NCBI GenBank assembly: GCA_012961935.1
Contig: DTYI01000133.1
Location: 1-43,323 of the forward strand
DNA from: Thiotrichales bacterium
GTDB lineage: Bacteria > Pseudomonadota > Gammaproteobacteria > CAZUMV01
DNA: 43,323 bases
Reading direction: 5' to 3'
The notes beneath the pieces are model-generated. The model was not told the DNA's origin. It did no database searches and saw only the letters and a program-made list of their open reading frames with translations. Shown here piece after piece: positions 3,175 to 26,205 of this stretch (within the stretch, counting starts at the first letter, position 1; the number at the start of each line of letters is the position of its first letter). Position numbers and translations under genes: made by a program.

Positions 3175-5369
3175 GGCGCTGGCGCTGGATCATCCGTTCT
3201 CTGCCGATGCTGGTGTTGTTTGTCCTGATTCTGGTGTCGCTCAATTTCATGAGTCTTGCGGCGAGCGACTCGGATCGGTTTGATCAACTTTATATCGGCC
3301 TGCTGTTATTTAATGGCGCGATGCTGCTATTGCTGACGGTTATTATCATTGTCCGTCTGTTTGTTCTCATCCGACAACTTTATAAGCGAGACTCTGGCGC
3401 TCGCCTGACCTGGCGTCTGGTATTGATGTTTATCGTTGTTGCGCTGGTGCCCGTGCTGATGGTGTATGGCTTTTCAGTTCGTTTTCTCGGCAGCGGTATT
3501 GATAGCTGGTTTGACGTGAAAATTGAGCAATCACTTGAAGATGCGCTGGAACTCAGTCGGTTGTCGCTTGAATATCGCATGCAGGAAGACCTCAACCAGG
3601 TCGAGCAAGCCGCGGAGGAACTGGCGAATATTCCTGAGGTACTGGCTGGTTTGAGCTTGAACGATATCCGTCGCCGCGCGGGTGCAGTGGAGATGGCGCT
3701 GTTGGGAAATAATAATCGGATTATCGCAACCAGCAGTGAGCAGTATGAGCTTGCAGTTCCCAAATTCCCGACGGAAGATATCATGTTGTTATTAGGCCAG
3801 GGGCAAAACTATATCGGTCTGGAACCCGCCGGAGAAGATGGCTTGCGTATCCGTGCGGTGGTGCGAATCAAGCCGGATGGGCGTATTTCCGAGTCCAAAG
3901 TGCTTGTGGCATTATTTCCGGTTTCACAACGTATCAGCGCACTGGCCGATAGTGTCCAGGCGGCTTATGGTGAATACAAAGGGCTGGTTTTCCTGCGCAA
4001 GCCATTGAAGCGCAGCTTTAAACTGACGCTGGCGCTGGTCTTGCTACTGAGTACCCTGTTTGCGATCTGGGCTGCATTTGCCATGGCGCGAAGGTTGCTC
4101 TCGCCGATTGTTGAACTGGCTGAAGCAACCAGGGCTGTCGCCGCGGGTGACTATGAACAAAAATTACCCGTGTTGCAGTCTGATGAGATGGGTTTTCTGG
4201 TTAAATCTTTTAATGAAATGACAGCACGCATGGATCAGGCGAGAATGGCCGCCGAGTTGAGTCAACGTGTGGCGGAAAGTCAGCGCAGCTATTTACAGGC
4301 TGTTCTGGGGCATTTAACGACCGGCGTATTGACCATTGATGCGGGGAATAACCTGCGTACCGCCAATGATGCGGCCAACGCTATCCTGGAAACCCGAATG
4401 CTGTTGCAGCAATATATCGGCAGGCCGTTTGCTGAAGTCTGCAAAGGTTCGCCGTTACTGGAAGATTTCTGCAAGAAGATTGGCCCTGAGCTAAGGAGTA
4501 GAACACCAGAATGGCAGCGGGAGGTGCATCTGTTCGGCGCGACCGGGCGGAAAGTTTTACTATGCCGGGGTGTGGAATTACCGGCAACTGCCAGTAAAGG
4601 GAGTGGACAAATTATTGTCTTTGATGACGTTACTAATATGATCAAAGTTCAACGAGATGCTGCCTGGGGTGAAGTGGCAAGGCGCCTTGCGCACGAAATC
4701 AAAAACCCGCTGACGCCGATACAGCTTTCAGCGGAACGTTTGCAGCATAAGCTGGGAAAGGATTTGTCGGCGAAGCAACAGGAAGTTTTGCAGCGCGCCA
4801 CCCATACCATCATTCAACAGGTGGACGCGATGAAAGAAATGGTCAACGAGTTCAGGGATTATGCCAGCACACCGGAGCCAGTGCTGGAGAAATGTGATTT
4901 GAATGCGCTGGTTAAAGAGGTTGCTGATTTGTATACCGATTTTCGTCCGGGAGTTCAGGTGCAGTTAGATCTGGATAAACGTTTGCCGGAAGTCATTGTG
5001 GATGCTGGACGGATTCGCCAGGTGCTACATAATCTGATTAAAAATGGCTTTGAAGCCCTCAAGGCTGAAACGCAAGGTGAACTGAATATCGCCACCCAGA
5101 AGTTTTCATCAGCCCAGGGTGATTATGTTGAGTTACGCGTCAGTGATAGCGGACATGGTATCTCAGAGGATATGATAGATACCCTGTTCGAACCTTATGC
5201 GACCAACAAGACTAAAGGTACTGGACTGGGGCTTGCGATTGTAAAGAAGATTGCTGAAGAGCATGGTGGTATTGTGATCGCCAGAAACCAGCCGCAGGGT
5301 GGCGCACAAATTGTTATTCGCCTGCCGAGTCGTCGGCGGCTGAATACTGTACAGGAGAAAACTGCATGA
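3171..5369 (+). CDS. ntrY: NtrY-like sensor histidine kinase
   Basis: Membrane sensor kinase of the NtrY/NtrX pair, about 732 residues from the ATG at 3171. The track start at 3159 is a GTG four codons upstream. It has three N-terminal membrane segments (LPMLVLFVLILVSL, LLLLTVIIIVRLF, LVLMFIVVALVPVL), a periplasmic sensor region, a fourth segment near residue 285 (TLALVLLLSTLFAIWAAF), HAMP, PAS, then HisKA with RLAHEIKNPLTP (phosphorylated His) and HATPase_c with N box NLIKNGFEAL, G1 DSGHGIS and G2 GTGLGLAI. All catalytic motifs are intact. It overlaps ntrX by 4 bp. NtrYX systems are linked to nitrogen and redox control in other proteobacteria; the signal here is unknown. Confidence 0.93.
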   Translation: MRRWRWIIRSLPMLVLFVLILVSLNFMSLAASDSDRFDQLYIGLLLFNGAMLLLLTVIIIVRLFVLIRQLYKRDSGARLTWRLVLMFIVVALVPVLMVYGFSVRFLGSGIDSWFDVKIEQSLEDALELSRLSLEYRMQEDLNQVEQAAEELANIPEVLAGLSLNDIRRRAGAVEMALLGNNNRIIATSSEQYELAVPKFPTEDIMLLLGQGQNYIGLEPAGEDGLRIRAVVRIKPDGRISESKVLVALFPVSQRISALADSVQAAYGEYKGLVFLRKPLKRSFKLTLALVLLLSTLFAIWAAFAMARRLLSPIVELAEATRAVAAGDYEQKLPVLQSDEMGFLVKSFNEMTARMDQARMAAELSQRVAESQRSYLQAVLGHLTTGVLTIDAGNNLRTANDAANAILETRMLLQQYIGRPFAEVCKGSPLLEDFCKKIGPELRSRTPEWQREVHLFGATGRKVLLCRGVELPATASKGSGQIIVFDDVTNMIKVQRDAAWGEVARRLAHEIKNPLTPIQLSAERLQHKLGKDLSAKQQEVLQRATHTIIQQVDAMKEMVNEFRDYASTPEPVLEKCDLNALVKEVADLYTDFRPGVQVQLDLDKRLPEVIVDAGRIRQVLHNLIKNGFEALKAETQGELNIATQKFSSAQGDYVELRVSDSGHGISEDMIDTLFEPYATNKTKGTGLGLAIVKKIAEEHGGIVIARNQPQGGAQIVIRLPSRRRLNTVQEKTA

Positions 5370-6718
5370 CAGCACAACGTATATTAGTGGTGGATGACGA
5401 GCCTGAAATCCGCAACGCAGTAAAGGACATTCTTGAAGACGAAGGCTTCGATGTCAGCCTGGCTGAAAGCGCGGCCCAGGCCAGAGAGCAACGTAAACAG
5501 CAACAGCCTGATCTGGTGCTGCTGGATATATGGATGCCGGATGAAGATGGCGTCAGCCTGCTCAAAGACTGGAAGCAGAATGAAGACATGCAGACCCCTA
5601 TCGTGATGATGTCGGGTCACGGTACGGTGGAAACAGCCGTTGAAGCAACTCGACACGGCGCTTTTGATTTTATTGAGAAGCCGCTTTCTCTAGCCAAGTT
5701 GTTGCGCGTAACAACTCAGGCGCTTGAATCCGCCAATCAAGCCAGGCCTGCTACAGCTCCTAAAATCGAAGTGATAGAGCCAGTGGGAACCAGCCCGCAA
5801 ATGCAGCATCTGCGTGAGCAGCTTCAGCGTGCAGCACAGCATGACACCTGGGTGATGCTGACAGGTGAAGCCGGTTCCGGCAAATCCATGGTGGCGCGTT
5901 ACATTCACGCCAACAGCGCCAGGGCTAAAAAGCCATTTATTGAGCTGACCACGATGGGGCTGGATGCCGAAGAAATCACGGCACAGCTGTTTGGTCGTGA
6001 CGGGCAGGCTGGGTTGCTGGAGCAGGCCAGCGGCGGCACGTTATACATCAACGAGGTCGCGAATCTTGATTTACAGGCTCAGGCATTATTGGTCAATGCG
6101 CTGGAACAAAAAGGCATCACGCGGAAAAGCGATGGACAAAAAATTGCGCTGGATATGCGGATTATGGCGTCTACCCAGCACGACCTGAATCAGCGCGTGG
6201 CGGATAAAGCCTTCCGCGAAGACCTGTACTACCATTTGAATGTTCTTCCTTTGCGGCTGCCTGCTCTGCGTGAGCATGCAGAAGATATTCCAGAGCTGTT
6301 GGCTTTTTATGTCGATTACTTCAACACTTATGAAGGATTGGCGTTTCGACATTTCACCCTGGCGGCGCAAAACTATCTGCGCTATTACAGTTGGCCGGGT
6401 AATGTCCGGCAATTACGTAACCTGGTGCAGCGATTGCTGGTCATGGGAGATGGTACTGAAATCAGTCAGGATGAAGCAGAAGAAGCGTTGCTCAGTGATC
6501 GCGTGGCTCAGGTGCAGGAAGGCGCGTCCGACATTCTGGGTGAGGCGATGGAGCTACCGTTACGTGAAGCACGAGAAGTTTTCGAACGCGAATACCTGAT
6601 TCGTCAGCTGGAAAAATGTCATGGCAATGTCAGCCGTCTGGCCGAACGGGTAGGGATGGAGCGGACCCACCTTTATCGTAAAATGCGCGCGCTGGGTGTG
6701 AATCCAAAAAGAAACTGA
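5366..6718 (+). CDS. ntrX: NtrX-like response regulator lacking the GAFTGA loop
   Basis: Cytoplasmic partner of NtrY, 450 residues. The receiver domain has D10/D11, phospho-acceptor D54 (LVLLDIWMP) and K105. The central AAA+ domain has an intact Walker A (GEAGSGKS, 167-174), but the segment that normally carries the sigma-54 contact motif GAFTGA is shortened to LFGRDGQAGLLEQASGG. Walker B reads GTLYINEV, with Asn where Asp is usual. The C-terminal Fis-type HTH (GNVSRLAERVGMERTHLYRKM) is intact. It probably binds DNA, but classical sigma-54 activation is doubtful. It starts inside the ntrY stop (ATGA), with trkA 13 bp downstream. Confidence 0.92.
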   Translation: MTAQRILVVDDEPEIRNAVKDILEDEGFDVSLAESAAQAREQRKQQQPDLVLLDIWMPDEDGVSLLKDWKQNEDMQTPIVMMSGHGTVETAVEATRHGAFDFIEKPLSLAKLLRVTTQALESANQARPATAPKIEVIEPVGTSPQMQHLREQLQRAAQHDTWVMLTGEAGSGKSMVARYIHANSARAKKPFIELTTMGLDAEEITAQLFGRDGQAGLLEQASGGTLYINEVANLDLQAQALLVNALEQKGITRKSDGQKIALDMRIMASTQHDLNQRVADKAFREDLYYHLNVLPLRLPALREHAEDIPELLAFYVDYFNTYEGLAFRHFTLAAQNYLRYYSWPGNVRQLRNLVQRLLVMGDGTEISQDEAEEALLSDRVAQVQEGASDILGEAMELPLREAREVFEREYLIRQLEKCHGNVSRLAERVGMERTHLYRKMRALGVNPKRN

Positions 6719-6731
6719 GAACACTCGACAA

Positions 6732-8105
6732 ATGAAAATAATAATACTGGGCGCTGGGCAGGTTGGTTCCTCACTGGCCCAGCATCTGGCCAGCGAGGCA
6801 AATGACATCACAGTTGTTGATACCAATCGTGAGGTGCTTCGTGAGTTGCAGGATCGTCTTGATCTGCGCACGGTCGGTGGTCACTGTGCGCATCCAGATG
6901 TGCTGGAGCAGGCCAACGTCGAAGACGCTGATATGGTGATTGCCGTCACCGACAGCGATGAAACCAATATGGTCGCCTGCCAGATTGCCTACACGCTTTA
7001 TCACACGCCAACCAAAATCGCCCGGGTTCGAGAAGGGAGTTATCTGCAGCATCCAGAGCTTTTTGTGCAGGAGGCCTTGCCTGTTGATGTGCTGATCAGC
7101 CCGGAGCAACTGGTGACCGATCATGTCGTCCGCCTGATTCGTCACCCTGGTGCCTTGCAGGTGCTTGATTTTGCCGATGGCCGGGTACAACTGGTTGCCG
7201 TGCGAGCCTACTATGGTGGCCCATTGGTCGGACATGAACTGCGTGAACTCTCTGAGCATATGCCGGGTATTCAGACACGGGTGACCGCTATCTTCCGAGG
7301 TGGGCAGCCGATCAAAGTTGATGGCCATACCGTGATCGAAGCGGATGATGAGGTATTTTTTATCGCGGCCCCCAAACATATTCGCGCCATTATCAGTGAA
7401 TTACGGCAGGTCGATAAACCATACAAACGGATCATGATTGCAGGTGGCGGAAATATTGGTCGACGGCTGGCGCAGGCGCTGGAGTCACGCTATCAGGTCA
7501 AGATAATCGAGCGTGATGCCGAACGCTGCCGTTTCCTGGCTGAAGCCCTCAACGATACGATTGTGCTGCGCGCTGACGCGGCGGATGAAAGTGTGCTGGT
7601 CGAGGAGAATATCGAAAGCATGGACGTTTTTGTCGCGCTAACCAGTGACGATGAAGCCAATATTCTTTCAGCTATGCTGGCCAGACGTCTGGGTGCACGC
7701 AAGGTGATGTCGCTGATTAACCGACCCAGTTATGTTCAGCTCGTTGAAAGTGGTGTGGTGGATGTTGCTATTTCGCCACAGCAGATTACCATCGGCGCAC
7801 TGCTGACCCATATCCGCCGAGGCGATATGGTGTCCGTGCATTCACTGCGCCATGGTGCGGCCGAAGCGATTGAGGTCATCGCCCATGGTGATGCAAAAAC
7901 TTCCAAAGTTGTGGGTAGTCGGATTGATGAATTAAACCTGCCGGAAGGTACGCATATCGCAACATTGGTGCGTGAGGATCAGGTCATCATGGCGCACCAT
8001 GACGCCGTGATCGAAGCCGAAGATCACATCATTTTATTTGTCTCTGATAAACGGCGTATTACAGAAGTGGAGCAGATGTTCCAGGTTGGCGTGACTTTTA
8101 TCTAG
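6732..8105 (+). CDS. trkA: Trk potassium uptake regulatory protein TrkA
   Basis: Peripheral NAD-binding subunit that gates the TrkH potassium channel. It has the usual 457-458 residue length and two RCK modules in tandem. The first Rossmann fold has GAGQVGSSLA and the acidic VVDTNRE. The second has GGGNIGRRLA near residue 237 followed by KIIERDAERC. Each is followed by a TrkA-C domain. It lies 13 bp after ntrX and 20 bp before trkH. The ntrYX-trkAH order is familiar in gammaproteobacteria and suggests co-transcription. Confidence 0.95.
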   Translation: MKIIILGAGQVGSSLAQHLASEANDITVVDTNREVLRELQDRLDLRTVGGHCAHPDVLEQANVEDADMVIAVTDSDETNMVACQIAYTLYHTPTKIARVREGSYLQHPELFVQEALPVDVLISPEQLVTDHVVRLIRHPGALQVLDFADGRVQLVAVRAYYGGPLVGHELRELSEHMPGIQTRVTAIFRGGQPIKVDGHTVIEADDEVFFIAAPKHIRAIISELRQVDKPYKRIMIAGGGNIGRRLAQALESRYQVKIIERDAERCRFLAEALNDTIVLRADAADESVLVEENIESMDVFVALTSDDEANILSAMLARRLGARKVMSLINRPSYVQLVESGVVDVAISPQQITIGALLTHIRRGDMVSVHSLRHGAAEAIEVIAHGDAKTSKVVGSRIDELNLPEGTHIATLVREDQVIMAHHDAVIEAEDHIILFVSDKRRITEVEQMFQVGVTFI

Positions 8106-13704: not shown

Positions 13705-14652
13705 CTACTTTTTCCCTTGTAATATTTCCCGGTAGCTGTGTTCGGCAAACATGGAATCAGACAGATACACGCTGGGTACGCGAATACAATTATTGAAAAC
13801 TTTCGGCCCGTGGATAAAAAGAATTTCGGGTTTGACGTGCACATGCGGCATACCACTTTGCGCCGCAGCCAGCGATTCAAATTCAACCATCACCAGATAT
13901 TGAGCGGGCAGGGTATAACCTTCCCAGACTTCAGCGGTGCGTTTGAGTTTACTGCCGGAACTGTCCTGCATGTCTTCCATGATCGATTCCACTGTGGCGT
14001 GCGCGCTGCCTAATGTGGACAGGCCAATCCGTTTCAGAATCTGGTAGCCGATGACGCCGCTGGTTTCTTTTAGCATATCCATTACCTGCACTTCGGCTTT
14101 TTCGAATTCTTCTTCCTTGCCGTGCTTGATAATGTGTTGCGCCATGACCGTCACCGTTTCGCCAGAATTCAGCGCATAACCGGATGTATCGCCGTTGTTT
14201 TCAAAGCCCATTTTCAGCATCTGATTTTTAGAAATAAGTTTGGGCAGGTCGCTTTTGACGATTCGGTAAACGGGTTCTTCCGGCCCGTCGAGTAGAACGT
14301 CGCCGCATTTTGCGCAGGTATCGACGACCACGTCCTCAAACGTCTCGTGGAAATTTTCGTGCGCTTCCCAACTGTCCCAATAGGTAATCTGGTCAATCCA
14401 GATGTGTGATAACGCCTGACGCATGTCTGAACTGGCGCCCCAGCGCATGCCCATGGGGCAGGCGCCCACCTGTTTCATTAAATCAAAGCCGCTAAAGCCT
14501 GGCGTCAAAGCAGTCGCCAGACACATTTTTGAACTGGCCTGTTTCATCATCTGCATCAGGTTCGGATCGTTCTCGACAAAAACCCGGTTGATGGCAACGT
14601 AAAGGGGAGATTTGGGTTCGCTGTCGAAGAGCTTCTTGAGTACATTAGGCAT
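13705..14652 (-). CDS. sor: Sulfur oxygenase/reductase (SOR)
   Basis: Cytoplasmic enzyme that disproportionates elemental sulfur with O2 to sulfite, thiosulfate and sulfide without external cofactors; 315 residues, close to archaeal SOR (about 308). By eye it aligns along its whole length to Acidianus SOR. The persulfide cysteine is C44 (SKMCLATALTPGF). The mononuclear iron ligands are H98 and H102 (AHENFH) and E126 (GPEEP). The cysteine pair CAKC is C113/C116, and the conserved RWG appears as MRWGA. The C-terminus (YREILQGKK) matches REYLNE-type ends. There is no signal peptide. A likely Shine-Dalgarno AAGGA precedes ATG at 14652. It follows amrS on the same strand by 91 bp. Confidence 0.9.
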   Translation of the reverse strand: MPNVLKKLFDSEPKSPLYVAINRVFVENDPNLMQMMKQASSKMCLATALTPGFSGFDLMKQVGACPMGMRWGASSDMRQALSHIWIDQITYWDSWEAHENFHETFEDVVVDTCAKCGDVLLDGPEEPVYRIVKSDLPKLISKNQMLKMGFENNGDTSGYALNSGETVTVMAQHIIKHGKEEEFEKAEVQVMDMLKETSGVIGYQILKRIGLSTLGSAHATVESIMEDMQDSSGSKLKRTAEVWEGYTLPAQYLVMVEFESLAAAQSGMPHVHVKPEILFIHGPKVFNNCIRVPSVYLSDSMFAEHSYREILQGKK

Positions 14653-14743: not shown

Positions 14744-15847
14744 TTAGGCCATTTCACGGTGGATTCTGACCGGCATCCGTTTCGCGCCCCAATGACCCGG
14801 CTCGGCTTCGAATACGCCTGCGCAAGCCGTACCACATTCCGGGCAGCAGCCGTTTTCATCCAGATTCCAGGCGGTGATTGTGTACCAGTCGCGGCCGATC
14901 AGCTTATGGTTGCATTGATGACAATAAGTGCTTTCACCATCCTCATCGTGTACGTTGCCGGTATAGGCGTAGCGGACACCGTTTTTAATTGCAATCTCTC
15001 TTGCGCGTGTCAGTGTTTGCGGTGGTGTGGCTGGCGTATCCATCATTTTCCAGTCCGGGTGAAAGGCTGAAAAATGCATCGGCACATCCGGGCCGAGATT
15101 TTCAACCACCCACTTTGTCATGGCATCCAGTTCCTCGTCAGAATCGTTGTGTCCAGGAATAAGCAGGGTCGTTGTTTCCAGCCAGCAATCTGTTTCATGC
15201 TTGATATATTTTAAGGTATTCAGTACGGGCTCAAGGTGGCTGCCGGTGATTGACCAGTAGAAGTCTTCGGTAAATGCTTTTAGATCGACGTTCGCAGCAT
15301 CCATATATTTAAAAAATTCTGCCCGCGGTTCGGGGGAGATATAACCCGCCGTTACTGCAACTGATTTAATATTGCGCTCGTGGCAGGCAATGGCTGTATC
15401 AATCGCATACTCCATGAAAATAACCGGATCATTGTAAGTGAAAGCGATGCTTCGACAACCTAACTCCTGTGCTGTTTCTGCGAGTTTTTCTGGTGATGCC
15501 TGATCCATCAGCGTGTCCATTTCGCGGGACTTGCTCATATCCCAGTTCTGGCAAAACTTGCAGGCGAGGTTACAGCCCGCGGTGCCAAAGGAAAGCACGG
15601 ACGAACCCGGCAGAAAATGGTTGAGCGGTTTTTTTTCAATCGGATCAACGCAAAACCCACTGGAGCGCCCGTAGGACGTCAGAACAATTTCACCATTCTG
15701 GTTCGCGCGCACAAAACACAGGCCGCGTTGGCCTTCTTTTAACTTGCACTCGCGTGGACAAACATCGCATTGAACCCGGCCATCATCCAGCTTATGCCAG
15801 TATCGCGTTGGGTGTGTGTTTTCCAGCAGAATTTTTTCTGTATGCAT
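14744..15847 (-). CDS. amrS: AmmeMemoRadiSam system radical SAM enzyme AmrS
   Basis: Cytoplasmic radical SAM protein of 367 residues, of the PflA-like family found with MEMO1 and AMMECR1 proteins. An N-terminal Cys cluster (CDVCPREC near 27-34, C44) precedes the cluster-binding CNLACKFC (C92, C96, C99). The glycine-rich SAM region and LKAFTEDFYW follow. The C-terminus carries a zinc-ribbon-like pair, CHQC and CPEC. It diverges from amrB across 71 bp, so the three system genes probably share a control region. The substrate of this family is not known to me. SOR lies directly downstream. Confidence 0.9.
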   Translation of the reverse strand: MHTEKILLENTHPTRYWHKLDDGRVQCDVCPRECKLKEGQRGLCFVRANQNGEIVLTSYGRSSGFCVDPIEKKPLNHFLPGSSVLSFGTAGCNLACKFCQNWDMSKSREMDTLMDQASPEKLAETAQELGCRSIAFTYNDPVIFMEYAIDTAIACHERNIKSVAVTAGYISPEPRAEFFKYMDAANVDLKAFTEDFYWSITGSHLEPVLNTLKYIKHETDCWLETTTLLIPGHNDSDEELDAMTKWVVENLGPDVPMHFSAFHPDWKMMDTPATPPQTLTRAREIAIKNGVRYAYTGNVHDEDGESTYCHQCNHKLIGRDWYTITAWNLDENGCCPECGTACAGVFEAEPGHWGAKRMPVRIHREMA

Positions 15848-15918: not shown

Positions 15919-16710
15919 ATGGAAAATAGAATACGACAAGCGGCGGTGGCCGGGCTATTTTACCCGGCTGATCCCACCGCACTGTCCTCACAAATTGATG
16001 CGTTTTTAAATGCGGCCGAATGCAAAGAATCATCGCCCAAAGCAATGATTGTTCCGCACGCGGGTACGATTTATTCCGGCCCAGTCGCCGCAAGCGCTTA
16101 CGCGCAGCTAAAAAACATCGGCCATAAAATTAAGCGAGTTATTTTGCTTGGGCCAGCGCATCGAGTTGGTTTTCGTGGGCTGGCTGCACCCAGTCATCAA
16201 TATTTTGAAACGCCATTGGGGCAGATTGAAATCGATCTTGAAGCAGTAAAAAAAATTACAGAGAAATTCCCGCAGGTAATTCTGGATGATCGGCCGCATG
16301 CAGAAGAACATAGCCTGGAAGTTCAATTGCCTTTTTTACAGAAAACACTGGGAAATTTTAAACTGCTGCCACTGGTTGTCGGTCAGGCAACGGCAGATGA
16401 AGTCGCGGAAGTGATTCGTGAATACTGGGGCGGGCCGGAAACATTGGTTGTGATCAGTTCAGACCTGAGCCATTTTCATGATTATGCAACCGCAATAAAA
16501 CGGGATAGTAAAACTTCCGCAGCGATTGAAACGTTGCATGGTGAAATGATTGGCCCGGAAGACGCCTGCGGATTTTTACCCGTCCGTGGCCTGTTGAAAA
16601 TAGCGGAAGAAAAGAATTTAAAAGTGGAAACAATTGACCAGCGAAACTCAGGTGACACCGCTGGCGATAAAAATCGGGTCGTAGGTTATGGCGCTTATTT
16701 ATTTAACTGA
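15919..16710 (+). CDS. amrB: AmmeMemoRadiSam system protein AmrB (MEMO1 family)
   Basis: MEMO1-family protein of 263 residues, related to extradiol-dioxygenase-fold metal enzymes. It has the N-terminal RQAAVAGLFYPAD, the metal-site-like VPHAGTIYSGPVAASAY (H47), LGPAHRVGFRGLA, the HSLEVQLPFLQ signature, ISSDLSHFHDY and the C-terminal GDKNRVVGYGAY. The start is ATG at 15919 without a clear ribosome-binding site. Its 3' end overlaps amrA by 23 bp, which points to coupled translation. The biochemical role in bacteria is not established; human MEMO1 binds iron and copper. Confidence 0.92.
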   Translation: MENRIRQAAVAGLFYPADPTALSSQIDAFLNAAECKESSPKAMIVPHAGTIYSGPVAASAYAQLKNIGHKIKRVILLGPAHRVGFRGLAAPSHQYFETPLGQIEIDLEAVKKITEKFPQVILDDRPHAEEHSLEVQLPFLQKTLGNFKLLPLVVGQATADEVAEVIREYWGGPETLVVISSDLSHFHDYATAIKRDSKTSAAIETLHGEMIGPEDACGFLPVRGLLKIAEEKNLKVETIDQRNSGDTAGDKNRVVGYGAYLFN

Positions 16711-17260
16711 CGAACAGCGCAGCCAGTTATTGCAGGTCGCACGAAAATCTATCCACGAGGGCTGTGAGAAAAACGCGCCTTTACCTGTTGATGTGAAAAA
16801 GTTTGAGGCGGCTTTACAAAACAAAGGCGCATCTTTCGTAACCTTGAAAATAGAAGAGGCATTGCGTGGTTGCATCGGCACACTGGAAGCCAGTCGGCCA
16901 TTAGTTCAGGACGTGTCGAGTCATGCTTTTGCCGCAGCTTTTACTGACCCAAGATTTTCGCCCGTCACCCGTGATGAACTGGAATTAATCACCATCAGCA
17001 TCTCCGTTCTGACACCCGCGGAAAAAATTGAATTCAAAGATGAGCTGGATTTGCTGGAAAAAATAAATCCCGGCGTCGATGGTTTGATTCTAGAAGCAGG
17101 CAGGTATCGAGGAACCTTCCTGCCAGCAGTCTGGAAATCGCTACCAGAAAAAATTGACTTTTTACAACAGCTAAAACGCAAAGCCGGGTTGCCGGAAAAT
17201 TATTGGTCAGAAGAGATTAGTGTTTCCCGATATCATACGGTCGAGTTTGCGGAATCATAA
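16688..17260 (+). CDS. amrA: AmmeMemoRadiSam system protein AmrA (AMMECR1 family)
   Basis: AMMECR1-domain protein of 190 residues. The family hallmark appears as ALRGCIGTLEASRPL near residue 59, followed by AFTDPRFSPVTRDEL, ISISVLTPAE and a C-terminal WSEEISVSRYHTVEF. The ATG at 16688 lies inside the end of amrB. The conserved cysteine in RGCIG suggests a catalytic or modification site, but the reaction is unknown. Its stop overlaps by 6 bp the end of the toxin gene on the other strand. Confidence 0.92.
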   Translation: MALIYLTDEQRSQLLQVARKSIHEGCEKNAPLPVDVKKFEAALQNKGASFVTLKIEEALRGCIGTLEASRPLVQDVSSHAFAAAFTDPRFSPVTRDELELITISISVLTPAEKIEFKDELDLLEKINPGVDGLILEAGRYRGTFLPAVWKSLPEKIDFLQQLKRKAGLPENYWSEEISVSRYHTVEFAES

Positions 17261-20841: not shown

Positions 20842-21906
20842 ATGATGAATCGCAATTTGATCAGCTCGCTTGCTGGCGTGATCCTGTTAATTACCATGCT
20901 TGTTTCATCACCAGTCTTTGCAGAATCACCACCACGTGAATTAGTGCTGCTGAACTGGTCTGAATATCTGGATCCTGAATTAGTTGAGAAGTTCGAGCAG
21001 CTACACAATGTCAAAGTACGTGAGGTTTATTTCGAGAATGATGACCTGCGCGACGAGCTGTTACTTGATACAGATGGCATGGGTTATGACCTTGCAGTCG
21101 TGAACGGGATTATGGTTGATACTTATCGCAAGCGGGGCTGGCTGGCCGTTGCAACCGAAAACAAAATCTCGAACCTGAAGCATGTTGACGAGTATTGGCT
21201 CAAGTCATTCGACGGTGCTGAGGGTTATGCGGTTCCCTACTTTTGGGGAACGCTCGGAATTGCCTATCGTGCGGATCTTGTGCAGACACCTCCAGGGAGC
21301 TGGATGGATCTGTACAAACCCAATGAGCAACTACGTGGGAAGATTGCGATGGTCGAGTCACAACGGGATGCCCTGGGGATGGCGCTGAAAGCACTCGGCT
21401 ACTCAGCCAACAGCATCGACAGCCGCCAGATCCGCGAGGCCATGGAGCTTCTGTTGACCCAAAAGCCCTACGTCAAGAGCTACGGTTATCTTGTGCTGGA
21501 TGAGAATTCCGCTCTTGTCAGCGGTGACGTTGTCATGGGCATGATATTTAGCGGCGATGCACTCATGCTAAAGGAACACCATGATGAGATACAGTACGTT
21601 GTTCCGAGAGAAGGCGGCAACATCTGGGTTGATTACCTGGTGGTATTACAGGGCTCAAAGAACAAGGATCTTGCCTATGCCTTTATCAATTTTCTGAACG
21701 AGCCCAGCCACGCAGCGCAACTCGCTGAGTTTGTGTATTACGCAAGCCCTAACAAAGCAGCTGAAAAGCTGCTACCCGCCGACTTTCTGGAAGACCCTGT
21801 CATTTATCCGAGTGAGGAGGTCTTGTCTAGATCTGAGGCATACACGCCTCTGCCGTTTCGTGCAACAAAAACGCGTAATACGAATTTTGCGCGCCTGAAT
21901 CAGTGA
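20842..21906 (+). CDS. Periplasmic polyamine-binding protein, PotD/NspS-like
   Basis: Exported substrate-binding protein of 354 residues in the PotD/PotF (SBP type 1) family. The signal peptide is cleaved near SPVFA-ES. The mature start ELVLLNWSEYLDPELVEKFE is the classical PotD opening; AVPYFWGTLGIAYRAD and EGGNIWVDYLVV are family motifs. No potABC genes are present. Instead a membrane GGDEF-EAL gene follows by 34 bp, the arrangement of Vibrio NspS-MbaA, in which the binding protein senses norspermidine/spermidine and controls c-di-GMP. A sensor rather than a transport role is inferred. Confidence 0.88.
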   Translation: MMNRNLISSLAGVILLITMLVSSPVFAESPPRELVLLNWSEYLDPELVEKFEQLHNVKVREVYFENDDLRDELLLDTDGMGYDLAVVNGIMVDTYRKRGWLAVATENKISNLKHVDEYWLKSFDGAEGYAVPYFWGTLGIAYRADLVQTPPGSWMDLYKPNEQLRGKIAMVESQRDALGMALKALGYSANSIDSRQIREAMELLLTQKPYVKSYGYLVLDENSALVSGDVVMGMIFSGDALMLKEHHDEIQYVVPREGGNIWVDYLVVLQGSKNKDLAYAFINFLNEPSHAAQLAEFVYYASPNKAAEKLLPADFLEDPVIYPSEEVLSRSEAYTPLPFRATKTRNTNFARLNQ

Positions 21907-21940
21907 TCCATGCAGCCGCTACAGTATTTGGAATTAGCCT

Positions 21941-24403
21941 GTGAAACTTCGAACCAAGATTCCGTTTCTACTCGTTCCGCTCATCGTCCTGTCTCTTCTG
22001 GTGCTTGGATGGTTTGCCTACATGCAACTGCGAGAGGCATCCGAGCAGCGCATGTTTGCAGAGATGAGCGCATCGCTCAGCCATCTCAGAGCACATATAG
22101 AAACGGAAGTCGAGACTGCGCGCGGTAATATAAAGCTTCTCTCTAACCAGGTACTGATCAAGAAATATATCCTGACTGAAGACGAAGAGGAGCGGTATAC
22201 CCTGCTTCAGCCTGTCTTGTTGCGATTGTTCTCGTCCTATCAGGAAGCCTTCCCGGAATATTACGAGATTCGCATTTTCCTGCCAGATGGTTATGAGGAT
22301 GCTCGCCAGACGCGGCCTTACATTGACAATCTCACCGATGAAGAAGGCGGCAGCGCTTTTTTCAAGGCCCTGCAAGCTTCAGGAGATGATATTTTAACAA
22401 CAATATATCTAAATCCTGACAACAAGAGGATGTCCCTGTTTATTGGGAATCCCCTGATTCTTGTTGACCGGGCTGTCGATCCCGTCGGTATTGCTCCAAA
22501 ACTACGTGGTTATGTTGGTCTGACTGTTGACCTCAGTGAGCTGGAGACCCAAATCCGCGATGAGATTATCAGTGATAGCGGCTACCTGTTTGCAACCGAT
22601 GCCGCAGGGAATGTTATTTTTGAGTCTTCCAAAAGACCGGTGGATGATTCCATACCCACAGCATTTGCCGAATCGGTTCTGGAATCAGAAGCGGGTGAGC
22701 CCATGTTGGCGACTTTCAATGGAGAAAGTGCATTTCTCTCAGCAACGCGTCTGCATGATGATCTCAATCTATTTGCAGTCTTGCCAGAAAGTGAGTTACG
22801 CATGGTCAGCTATAAGCTTGCCCTCGTGGTAGCGGCCATCACACTGGTGACCATTCTGGTTACGACACTGTTCATGGTGATGGCGATGGAGTACCTGGTT
22901 ATCCGTCCGATACACCGTCTTCGCAGGATCGCAAAGGAAATTGGTAGTGGCAGCTGGTCTGCCGAAGTTGGAGGTGTGACTGCCAGTGATGAAATTGGTG
23001 ATCTCGCTATGGCGTTTAGGGAAATGGCTATAAATCTGCAGCAATCCGATGAGCAAGTGCGCATTCTTGCTTATCACGACAGCCTGACAGGCCTGCCCAA
23101 TCGTACCATGTTCCAGGAATATCTTGACCAGTCGATCTTGCATGCAAAGAGAAACCAGCAATCCCTTGCAGTGATGTTTCTCGATCTCGACAACTTTAAA
23201 CAGGTCAACGATAGTCTGGGACACTATGCGGGTGATGCTCTGCTGCAGAAAGTTGCACAGCGCGTCACAAAGGTTTTACGCGGAGGTGATTACCTTGCCA
23301 GGGGGAGTTCCCAGAATAGCGGCGAAAAAATTCTGGCGCGGCTTGGCGGGGATGAATTTATTATCCTGTTGCCTGATATCCCGGATTCTCTTGCCGCAGG
23401 TGTGGTGGCCCAGCGGCTTGTCGAGGCGCTCGCCAAACCGGTTATTGTCAGCGGGGAGGCGTGTTATGTGAGTGCCAGTATCGGCATTACCCTCTACCCG
23501 GATGATGGCAGCAATACCAATGAGCTGATTAAGAACGCGGATATAGCCATGTACCATGCCAAGGAGAAGGGTAAGAATAACTACCAGTTTTTTGAGAACC
23601 TCATGAATGTCGCAGCCAGGGAGCGGATGAAGCTCGAAACCAAACTGCGTAGCGCACTGGAGCGCGGCCATCTGGAGCTGCACTACCAACCTCAAATCGA
23701 TAGCCTGACTCACAAGGTGGTTGGCCTTGAGGCCTTGCTGCGCTGGCGGGATCCGGAGGATGGTCTGATTTTGCCGAATGATTTCATTCCAGTCGCTGAA
23801 ACATCCGGTCTGATTCTGCCGATCGGTGAATGGGTTCTACACGAGGCGTGCCGGCAGGCTCGCGCCTGGCAAAATGCAGGCTACCCGCTGCCGTTAATGT
23901 CTGTCAATGTTTCGAACGTCCAGTTCGCAAGGCAGGATGTTGCCTCGATTGTAGAAGCGGCCCTCGGCAGCAGTGGACTGGATCCGCGTTGTCTCGAGAT
24001 CGAGATTACCGAGAGCACCATGATGAGTGATCCGGAAATTGCTGCGCAGGTTCTTGATGATGTAAAGGGGCTTGGGGTTGGTATTGCGCTGGACGATTTT
24101 GGTACAGGCTATTCCTCGCTCGGTTACCTGCGGAGGTTCCCGATCGACACACTCAAGATTGACCGGGGTTTTATCAGTGAGATCGATGAAAAGCAGGCAG
24201 ATGCAGAAATTGTCGGGGCTATTGTCGCCATGGCGCATACGTTACACCTGCGCGTCGTTGTCGAGGGAGTCGAAACGCAGAGTCAGTTGGATATCGTAAC
24301 TGAGCGGCAGTGTGATGTGATTCAAGGCTTCCTGTTCAGCCGCCCGTTGCCGGCTGATGAAATCGTTCGGCTACTGGCTGAGCCCAGTCTAAGAATTGCG
24401 TGA
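21941..24403 (+). CDS. Membrane GGDEF-EAL protein, MbaA-like
   Basis: Bifunctional c-di-GMP enzyme of 820 residues with a GTG start. TM1 is near 8-28; a periplasmic sensor of about 260 residues with Cache-like GYLFATDAAGNVIFES follows; TM2 is near 291-314; HAMP covers about 317-369. The cyclase domain holds an intact GGDEF (469-473), but no RxxD I-site precedes it and about 12 extra residues (RGSSQNSGEK) sit just upstream. The phosphodiesterase domain from about 565 has EALLRW (597), VNVSNVQF, EIEITES, DDFGTGYSSL, LKIDRGFI and VVEGVET, all expected active-site residues. The upstream periplasmic polyamine-binding protein probably docks on the sensor domain. Confidence 0.9.
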   Translation: MKLRTKIPFLLVPLIVLSLLVLGWFAYMQLREASEQRMFAEMSASLSHLRAHIETEVETARGNIKLLSNQVLIKKYILTEDEEERYTLLQPVLLRLFSSYQEAFPEYYEIRIFLPDGYEDARQTRPYIDNLTDEEGGSAFFKALQASGDDILTTIYLNPDNKRMSLFIGNPLILVDRAVDPVGIAPKLRGYVGLTVDLSELETQIRDEIISDSGYLFATDAAGNVIFESSKRPVDDSIPTAFAESVLESEAGEPMLATFNGESAFLSATRLHDDLNLFAVLPESELRMVSYKLALVVAAITLVTILVTTLFMVMAMEYLVIRPIHRLRRIAKEIGSGSWSAEVGGVTASDEIGDLAMAFREMAINLQQSDEQVRILAYHDSLTGLPNRTMFQEYLDQSILHAKRNQQSLAVMFLDLDNFKQVNDSLGHYAGDALLQKVAQRVTKVLRGGDYLARGSSQNSGEKILARLGGDEFIILLPDIPDSLAAGVVAQRLVEALAKPVIVSGEACYVSASIGITLYPDDGSNTNELIKNADIAMYHAKEKGKNNYQFFENLMNVAARERMKLETKLRSALERGHLELHYQPQIDSLTHKVVGLEALLRWRDPEDGLILPNDFIPVAETSGLILPIGEWVLHEACRQARAWQNAGYPLPLMSVNVSNVQFARQDVASIVEAALGSSGLDPRCLEIEITESTMMSDPEIAAQVLDDVKGLGVGIALDDFGTGYSSLGYLRRFPIDTLKIDRGFISEIDEKQADAEIVGAIVAMAHTLHLRVVVEGVETQSQLDIVTERQCDVIQGFLFSRPLPADEIVRLLAEPSLRIA

Positions 24404-24421: not shown

Positions 24422-24460
24422 ATGACAGCTATTAGTTTAATTGCTATAGTGTGAAACTAT
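24422..24460 (+). promoter_or_regulatory. oxyR promoter with overlapping OxyR-like half site
   Basis: ATGACA (24422-24427), a 17-base spacer and TATAGT (24445-24450) form a near-consensus sigma-70 promoter for oxyR. ATAG-N7-CTAT (24446-24460) overlaps the -10 and start site. This matches one half of the OxyR recognition pattern and fits negative autoregulation; the second half is not conserved. Confidence 0.5.
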
Positions 24461-24485: not shown

Positions 24486-25412
24486 ATGACATTAACTGAT
24501 CTTCGCTACATCATCGTGCTTGCGCGTGAACGTCATTTCGGGCGTGCGGCTGAAGCCTGTTTCGTCAGTCAGCCGACTTTGAGCGTTGCCGTAAAAAAGC
24601 TGGAAGATGAGTTGGGCGTCACGTTGTTTGAACGCAGTCACTCAGATGTTAGTTTAACGCCAGTTGGTGAGCAGGTGATTGATGCTGCACAGCGCACACT
24701 AGAGGCGGCAGAAAGCGTCAAACAAGTTGCCAGTGCAGGCCAGGATCAGTTAACTGCGCCACTTAAACTGGGCGCGATTTATACGGTTGGGCCGTATATT
24801 TTTCCTGAGTTAATTCCGCACCTGAAAGAAATCGCCCCGCAGATGCCTTTGATTGTTGAGGAGGGCTATACCGCCGATTTAACCGAGCAGCTTAAACAGG
24901 GTGAGCTGGATGTGATCCTGATTTCCCTGCCTTTTGAAGAACCCAATATCCTGACGCTGCCTTTGTACGAGGAACCATTTGTGGTGTTGCTGCCTGCGGC
25001 ACATCCTTTAACTGCAAGAAAAACACTTTCATCGAAACAGTTAGAGAAGGAATCAATGTTGTTGTTGGGTGCGGGTCATTGTTTTCGTGATCAGGTGCTG
25101 GAAGCCTGCCCGGGCTGCTTGCCGAAATCGGTGCAGGGTGAACATGCCGCAATGGTTGTTGAAGGTAGCTCAATTGAAACGATTCGGCACATGGTGGTAT
25201 CAGGCATGGGGTTAACTGTTCTGCCCTGTACGGCTGCCGGAACTGATCGTTATTCGCAAAGATTACTGGCGATCAGGCGCTTTGTGCGGCCGATACCAAA
25301 ACGAACTATTGCGCTGGCATGGCGAGTCAGTTTTCCGCGACCACAGGTTATCGATGTGATGCGTGAAGCGGTTGCAGCTTGCCAGTTCAGTTGTGTAAAG
25401 CACTTGGTTTAA
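24486..25412 (+). CDS. oxyR: Hydrogen peroxide-sensing regulator OxyR
   Basis: LysR-type regulator of 308 residues. The N-terminal winged HTH reads LRYIIVLARERHFGRAAEAC-FVSQPTLS. The effector domain carries the redox pair C199 (GAGHCFRDQ) and C208 (EACPG), at exactly the E. coli OxyR positions, so peroxide sensing by disulfide formation is well supported. C25 and C209-region residues are otherwise unremarkable. The gene precedes a peroxiredoxin gene by 136 bp, with an OxyR-like site between them. Confidence 0.93.
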   Translation: MTLTDLRYIIVLARERHFGRAAEACFVSQPTLSVAVKKLEDELGVTLFERSHSDVSLTPVGEQVIDAAQRTLEAAESVKQVASAGQDQLTAPLKLGAIYTVGPYIFPELIPHLKEIAPQMPLIVEEGYTADLTEQLKQGELDVILISLPFEEPNILTLPLYEEPFVVLLPAAHPLTARKTLSSKQLEKESMLLLGAGHCFRDQVLEACPGCLPKSVQGEHAAMVVEGSSIETIRHMVVSGMGLTVLPCTAAGTDRYSQRLLAIRRFVRPIPKRTIALAWRVSFPRPQVIDVMREAVAACQFSCVKHLV

Positions 25413-25424
25413 CCAATCCAGTCT

Positions 25425-25461
25425 ATAGTATTTTACTATCGAAATAATTTATAATATCAAT
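25425..25461 (+). promoter_or_regulatory. Putative OxyR site and -10 of the peroxiredoxin gene
   Basis: ATAG-N7-CTAT (25425-25439) is followed at the expected 7-base spacing by ATTT and CAAT, which match the second half site at 2/4 and 3/4. A perfect TATAAT lies at 25450-25455, while the -35 position (AGTATT) is poor. An activator bound over -35 would fit this layout. Confidence 0.5.
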
Positions 25462-25548
25462 TGTATTAATTAATCAGTATTCTCTAATATGTACTCCATG
25501 GCAGGCGAATCTGCTGGCCACAATTTTTTAATTAACTGGAGAAATACG

Positions 25549-26205
25549 ATGCAAGAAAATACTGTAACCGAGATGACTGTCGGCATGCCGCGTTTGAATG
25601 AGCCTGCGCCGGCGTTTGAAGCAAAGACCACGCATGGCGTGAAAAAGCTTTCTGACTACAAAGGAAAATGGCTGGTGCTGTTTTCACACCCGGCAGATTT
25701 CACGCCGGTCTGCACTACGGAGTTTATGGCATTCGCGAAGTATCATGAAGAATTCCAGGCTGCGGGTGCAGAACTGCTGGGCCTGTCCATCGACAGCTAC
25801 TTTAGCCACATTGCCTGGGTGCGGAATATCAAGGAAAACTTTGGTGTCGAGATTAATTTCCCGATTATCGAAGACCTGTCAATGACAGTAGCCAAAGCTT
25901 ACGGAATGATCCACCCGGGTGCGGCGGATACTTCTGCGGTACGTGCTACCTTCATTATCGATCCGGAAGGTATTCTGCGCGCCATGGTTTACTACCCGAT
26001 GACCAATGGTCGTTCGATCCCGGAATTTCTGCGCATCATCAAGGCGCTGCAAGCTTCTGACGAGCATAAGATAGCGACCCCAGAAGGTTGGCAACCGGGT
26101 GACAAGGTCATTGTGCCTCCACCCCAGGATGCTACAGCGGCCGAAGCGCGCATGAACGAAGGCTATGAATGTACTGACTGGTATTTCTGTAAAAAAGAAA
26201 TCTAA
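25549..26205 (+). CDS. Peroxiredoxin, Prx6 type
   Basis: Cytoplasmic thiol peroxidase of 218 residues. The start is ATG at 25549, 8 bases after GGAG; the track start 20 codons upstream is rejected. The peroxidatic cysteine is C55 in HPADFTPVCTTEF. IIDPEGILRAMVYYPMTNGRS is the Prx6 signature. The C-terminus has C208 and C214 (YECTDWYFC), the spacing of archaeal Prx6/Tpx enzymes (about C207 and C213) that can form an intramolecular disulfide. It probably reduces H2O2 or organic peroxides under OxyR control. It ends in a strong terminator. Confidence 0.93.
   Translation: MQENTVTEMTVGMPRLNEPAPAFEAKTTHGVKKLSDYKGKWLVLFSHPADFTPVCTTEFMAFAKYHEEFQAAGAELLGLSIDSYFSHIAWVRNIKENFGVEINFPIIEDLSMTVAKAYGMIHPGAADTSAVRATFIIDPEGILRAMVYYPMTNGRSIPEFLRIIKALQASDEHKIATPEGWQPGDKVIVPPPQDATAAEARMNEGYECTDWYFCKKEI

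Follow-up and report, generated by a model that had tools for sequence, protein, structure and literature searches.

The window, by which we mean the whole stretch of 43,323 nucleotides that was analysed, carries two adjacent forward-strand genes, both predicted at exactly the coordinates claimed for them (20842-21906 and 21941-24403). The preliminary description had placed a GGDEF-EAL gene 34 bp after a gene for a PotD-type binding protein, and coordinates, gap and domains are all borne out:

20842..21906, + strand: NspS-like periplasmic solute-binding protein (SBP; SBP_bac_8, PotD superfamily), 354 aa with signal peptide, assigned by Pfam, tree and ligand residues
21040..21054, + strand: codons of the sensor-type motif D67-D68-L69-R70-D71 in the SBP, in which D68 aligns with V. 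cholerae NspS D70
21907..21940, + strand: intergenic gap of 34 bp between SBP and receptor genes
21941..24403, + strand: MbaA-like receptor of 820 aa (TM1, periplasmic dCache, TM2, HAMP, GGDEF, EAL)
22022..22780, + strand: periplasmic dCache of the receptor, about residues 28-280, assigned by AlphaFold2, Foldseek and Pfam in homologues
22898..23044, + strand: HAMP of the receptor, residues 320-368 (Pfam)
23069..23581, + strand: GGDEF domain of the receptor, residues 377-547, with intact GGDEF and a canonical I-site position that is not conserved
23642..24346, + strand: EAL domain of the receptor, residues 568-802, with intact catalytic motifs

The SBP gene starts with ATG, with AAGGG upstream, and the receptor gene with GTG; the 34-bp gap contains no terminator-like site, which supports co-transcription of the two. 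Directly 3' of the receptor gene, 24486-26205 (+) encodes an OxyR-like regulator of the LysR type together with a peroxiredoxin; these genes probably lie outside the receptor operon because there is a promoter-like site at 24422-24450, between the receptor gene and the regulator.

The SBP has a cleavable signal peptide (cut between VFA and ES, by inspection) and matches Pfam SBP_bac_8 (E=1.7e-31), and among solved structures it comes closest to those of PotD proteins (e.g., 4eqb, E=3.4e-60). The genome, a 2.75-Mb assembly that is 95.8% complete, such that absences are subject to the missing few percent, yielded no PotB/PotC permease: its seven BPD_transp_1 permeases are of the oligopeptide, phosphate, nitrate/sulfonate and tungstate types, as judged from neighbours and sequence. 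Neither genome-wide nor near the SBP was there a PotA match above cut-off (model TIGR01187), in agreement with the initial claim that potABC genes are missing; no second PotD of the window type occurs in the genome, and its one other SBP_bac_8 protein is only remotely PotD-like. The window SBP is thus without the PotB/PotC and PotA partners of a PotABCD importer. A maximum-likelihood tree separated 32 sensor SBPs, including NspS of S. meliloti, from 13 transporter-type PotDs by a branch with 100/100 support. With S. meliloti NspS as the clade reference (the V. cholerae NspS sequence was outside the tree), the window SBP is of sensor-type ancestry, on the side of NspS and not of transporter PotD.

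The pairing of the two genes recurs in other bacteria. In a search of 56 relatives, a gene for the homologous receptor comes after each of the two nearest homologues of the SBP (54% and 48%), whereas most of the remoter homologues adjoin potABC instead; in a third genome both genes are broken by stops and frameshifts. A decayed-looking pair of this kind lies on the minus strand of a single-contig 3.4-Mb genome (L036, G036:C1:364000-376000, at ~4276-7773), where the stops and frameshifts reflect either decay or long-read errors. A scan of genome contigs with the single SBP sequence gave no matches, as did tblastn in plasmids with the periplasmic domain of the window receptor, and an alignment of the N-terminal SBP motif was used instead, which recovered 80 loci from 84,980 species genomes. 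The downstream gene had no role in choosing these loci, and in all 80 a receptor gene adjoins the SBP (75 GGDEF-EAL, 5 hybrid histidine kinase), at distances of -14 to +34 bp where starts could be assigned. PotB/PotC genes occur near none of 84 sensor loci, as compared to 11 of 13 controls. A search across gammaproteobacteria, as proposed in the preliminary description, gave the same picture: when a sensor-SBP profile was run against 369 genomes, the seven best matches (374-513 bits, all others scoring <=262 bits) all adjoined a GGDEF-EAL gene, and of 16 lower-scoring loci examined, none had one directly beside it. The adjacency of SBP and receptor is kept in other genera and is not due to chance. 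The pair is nonetheless patchy, being absent from the two same-family genomes, both less complete. The closest relative of the window pair (L069, JABDRC010000170.1; 77% SBP identity) comes from a metagenome-assembled genome (MAG) titled 'Halobacteria archaeon', a contig that is probably mis-binned or mis-titled gammaproteobacterial DNA.

These counts bear on whether the SBP might be an orphan transporter component that by chance lies beside an unrelated GGDEF-EAL gene. A sensor gene beside an SBP gene does not always share a function with it (PMC11113362), but with adjacency in 80 of 80 loci, an SBP in the sensor clade, and PotB/PotC absent from the genome and from every sensor locus, we regard this reading as very improbable and reject it on the strength of the conserved pairing and the missing PotB/PotC.

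The ligand site of the SBP was compared with both NspS and PotD. In V. cholerae NspS, norspermidine is modelled to touch eight residues (W41, D70, D90, F131, Y233, D236, W261 and D263, listed in PMC9993111), of which the window SBP has six (W39, D68, F134, D239, W262 and D264), with F236 for Y233, a Y-to-F change at a seventh position, and N88 for D90; the V. cholerae positions were placed through the alignment with S. meliloti NspS and not by direct comparison with the V. cholerae sequence. Residues D67, D68, R70 and D71 are invariant across sensor loci, which for D68 is partly circular since it belongs to the scan motif, although its presence in the window SBP is not. The predicted model of a homologous SBP matches the structures of VcPotD1 with norspermidine or spermidine and those of PotD. 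It is nevertheless conceivable, though unlikely, that the same SBP-gated c-di-GMP receptor responds to another cationic small molecule, such as GABA, 5-aminovalerate, agmatine or a diamine, in place of a spermidine-like polyamine. In Pseudomonas, the ligand of SBP_bac_8 proteins that had been annotated as polyamine-binding was found to be GABA or 5-aminovalerate, and these proteins showed no binding to the sensor domains of the neighbouring kinases (PMC11113362). Four ligand positions of PotD are also altered in the window SBP (S83 to N88, Y85 to I90, D168 to S173 and W229 to F236). The genome, moreover, has a match to spermidine synthase but none to the norspermidine enzyme NspC, and norspermidine is therefore not obviously self-made: the missing NspC favours another ligand, and the synthase a spermidine-like one. 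Also on the side of a polyamine are the amine-gripping residues, acidic and aromatic, which are retained (W39, E41, Y42, D68, D176, D239, W262 and D264) and the fact that NspS is the closest functionally studied relative of the window SBP.

In the receptor, the HAMP, GGDEF and EAL domains score above the Pfam cut-offs and dCache_1 falls below its own. As initially described, GGDEF and all EAL catalytic residues are intact (EALLRW, NVSNVQ, EITES, DDFGTGYSS, VVVEGVET and QGFLFSRP), while the position of the canonical RxxD I-site reads SGEK (by inspection) because of an insertion. Domains of this composition would allow a ligand-dependent switch in the sign of the output, without demonstrating one. 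An AlphaFold2 model of residues 1-307, built with 16 sequences, is of high confidence (mean pLDDT 90.3, pTM 0.81), and its periplasmic domain matches dCache sensors in Foldseek (crystal structures at E about 2.5e-11), among them a domain of a Vibrio GGDEF protein and one of a Vibrio kinase; Pfam dCache_1 was found in 15 of 16 homologues. The periplasmic domain is a dCache. Because amino acids and amines are commonly bound directly by dCache domains, and most Foldseek matches are to chemoreceptor domains that bind their ligands directly, we also considered that the dCache directly senses its own small ligand, with the SBP only modulating or delivering it. We judge this improbable: the receptor lacks R-x-W-Y of the classical amino-acid dCache motif and has AFF at that place (by inspection), and every strong match to the receptor among the 56 genomes searched adjoins the SBP. 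A read-through AlphaFold model of SBP plus receptor from a homologue, in which stops were read as residues, gave confident domains whose mutual placement was not confident (pTM 0.59), and is not counted as docking evidence.

The reading that we prefer, and hold to be likely, is that of an NspS-MbaA-type receptor, for which we infer the ligand, the docking and the direction of the response. In the periplasm, the PotD-like SBP would bind spermidine or a closely related polyamine, and in its liganded or closed form would dock on the dCache of the adjacent membrane receptor; the signal would then travel via TM2 and HAMP and shift the balance between diguanylate cyclase (GGDEF) and phosphodiesterase (EAL), such that c-di-GMP tracks external polyamine. 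In V. cholerae, norspermidine-bound NspS favours the cyclase activity of MbaA, and spermidine-bound or free NspS leaves the phosphodiesterase (PMC8967002). By analogy, the most likely role of the window pair is to translate external polyamine into c-di-GMP. Polyamine import lowers the periplasmic level in V. cholerae; in the window genome, where no Pot importer was detected, the receptor would sense external polyamine free of that step. Probable polyamine-to-c-di-GMP sensing would thereby extend past the vibrios and the rhizobia to gammaproteobacteria that are for the most part uncultured, the window being a case in a genome without a detectable Pot importer.

The S. meliloti pair (L033) lies directly upstream of purD and was matched to smc00991/smc00992 by architecture and gene overlap, as these are described in PMC9993111. 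It shares with the window a PotD-like SBP directly upstream of a TM-periplasmic-TM-HAMP-GGDEF-EAL protein, without pot genes, and the I-site is absent from both receptors. The two SBPs are 33% identical and fall on the same side of the 100/100 branch. However, the window receptor has a canonical GGDEF where S. meliloti MbaA has SGDEF, and the genes are separated by 34 bp where those of S. meliloti overlap, a gap wider than the 20 bp or less demanded in the published NspS-MbaA survey (PMC9993111). The periplasmic domains are weakly similar: window-type dCache matches ten rhizobial MbaA periplasmic domains with an hhalign probability of 81 and E=1.2e-5, and Pfam detects no Cache domain in S. meliloti MbaA. 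With V. cholerae NspS-MbaA (PMC8967002, PMC9993111), the window has in common the gene pair, the architecture and the six of eight modelled contacts, but V. cholerae MbaA carries EVL and SGDEF in place of canonical EAL and GGDEF, and the window genome, unlike V. cholerae, has neither a detected Pot importer nor NspC. The likeness to NspS-MbaA first proposed for this locus is supported by the clade of the SBP, by its ligand residues, by the conserved pairing and by the lack of PotB/PotC; the pair probably functions in the manner of NspS-MbaA, of which we would class it as a new and divergent representative.

The five kinase-coupled loci have a sensor-clade SBP and a homologous dCache-HAMP input, as in the window (hhalign E=1.3e-45 and 7.5e-27 for window-type dCache against that of kinase-coupled receptors), but a histidine kinase and receiver as output in place of GGDEF-EAL: in these, the gene after the NspS-like SBP encodes a hybrid histidine kinase with dCache and HAMP (L078:6993-9644, L079:6992-9634, L083:4295-6946, L088:6990-9617 and L089:6993-9635; kinase domains of L078 and L088 checked by Pfam). 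In the three of these loci that come from MAGs, a second large multi-domain kinase/receiver gene comes next. The kinase-coupled SBPs occupy two separate places on the SBP tree, which implies one or more changes of output within the sensor group; no description of such a swap behind an NspS-like SBP was found in the open-licence literature. LuxP-LuxQ resembles the window pair in that a periplasmic binding protein gates a membrane receptor whose periplasmic domain is of tandem PAS/Cache type, but LuxP belongs to another SBP class and binds AI-2, and LuxQ is a hybrid kinase. We are inclined to view the NspS-like SBP and dCache-HAMP receptor as a polyamine input cassette to which evolution has coupled two or more kinds of output (GGDEF-EAL and hybrid histidine kinase), the window pair lying in a mostly uncultured gammaproteobacterial branch that has purple sulfur bacteria (Lamprobacter, Halochromatium) near by and is not named in the available part of the published survey. 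This natural swap behind the same SBP and dCache offers material for testing how input sets the sign of the output.

Other PotD-like SBPs without pot genes have different neighbours. At L202:4221-6905 (G119), one of the 16 lower-scoring loci of the profile search, the SBP gene is directly followed by one for a soluble receiver-PAS-histidine kinase, and no membrane receptor was identified at that locus. At L200:5701-7853 and L201:3098-5253 (G077 and G204), the SBP lies beside a 362-aa membrane protein that resembles a sensor domain without an output domain, and both loci also carry a second, TAXI-like binding protein.

The organism was initially called a probable sulfur oxidiser, for which the window offers a single favouring feature: a match at 13705-14652 (-) to NF047630, which models sulfur oxygenase/reductase (177 bits, E=3.3e-52), a score that is well under the 400-bit cut-off. 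Next to it, at 14744-15847 (-), an AmmeMemoRadiSam radical SAM enzyme scores over its cut-off, and the adjoining open reading frames, including 16688-17260 (+), look like the remainder of that cluster.
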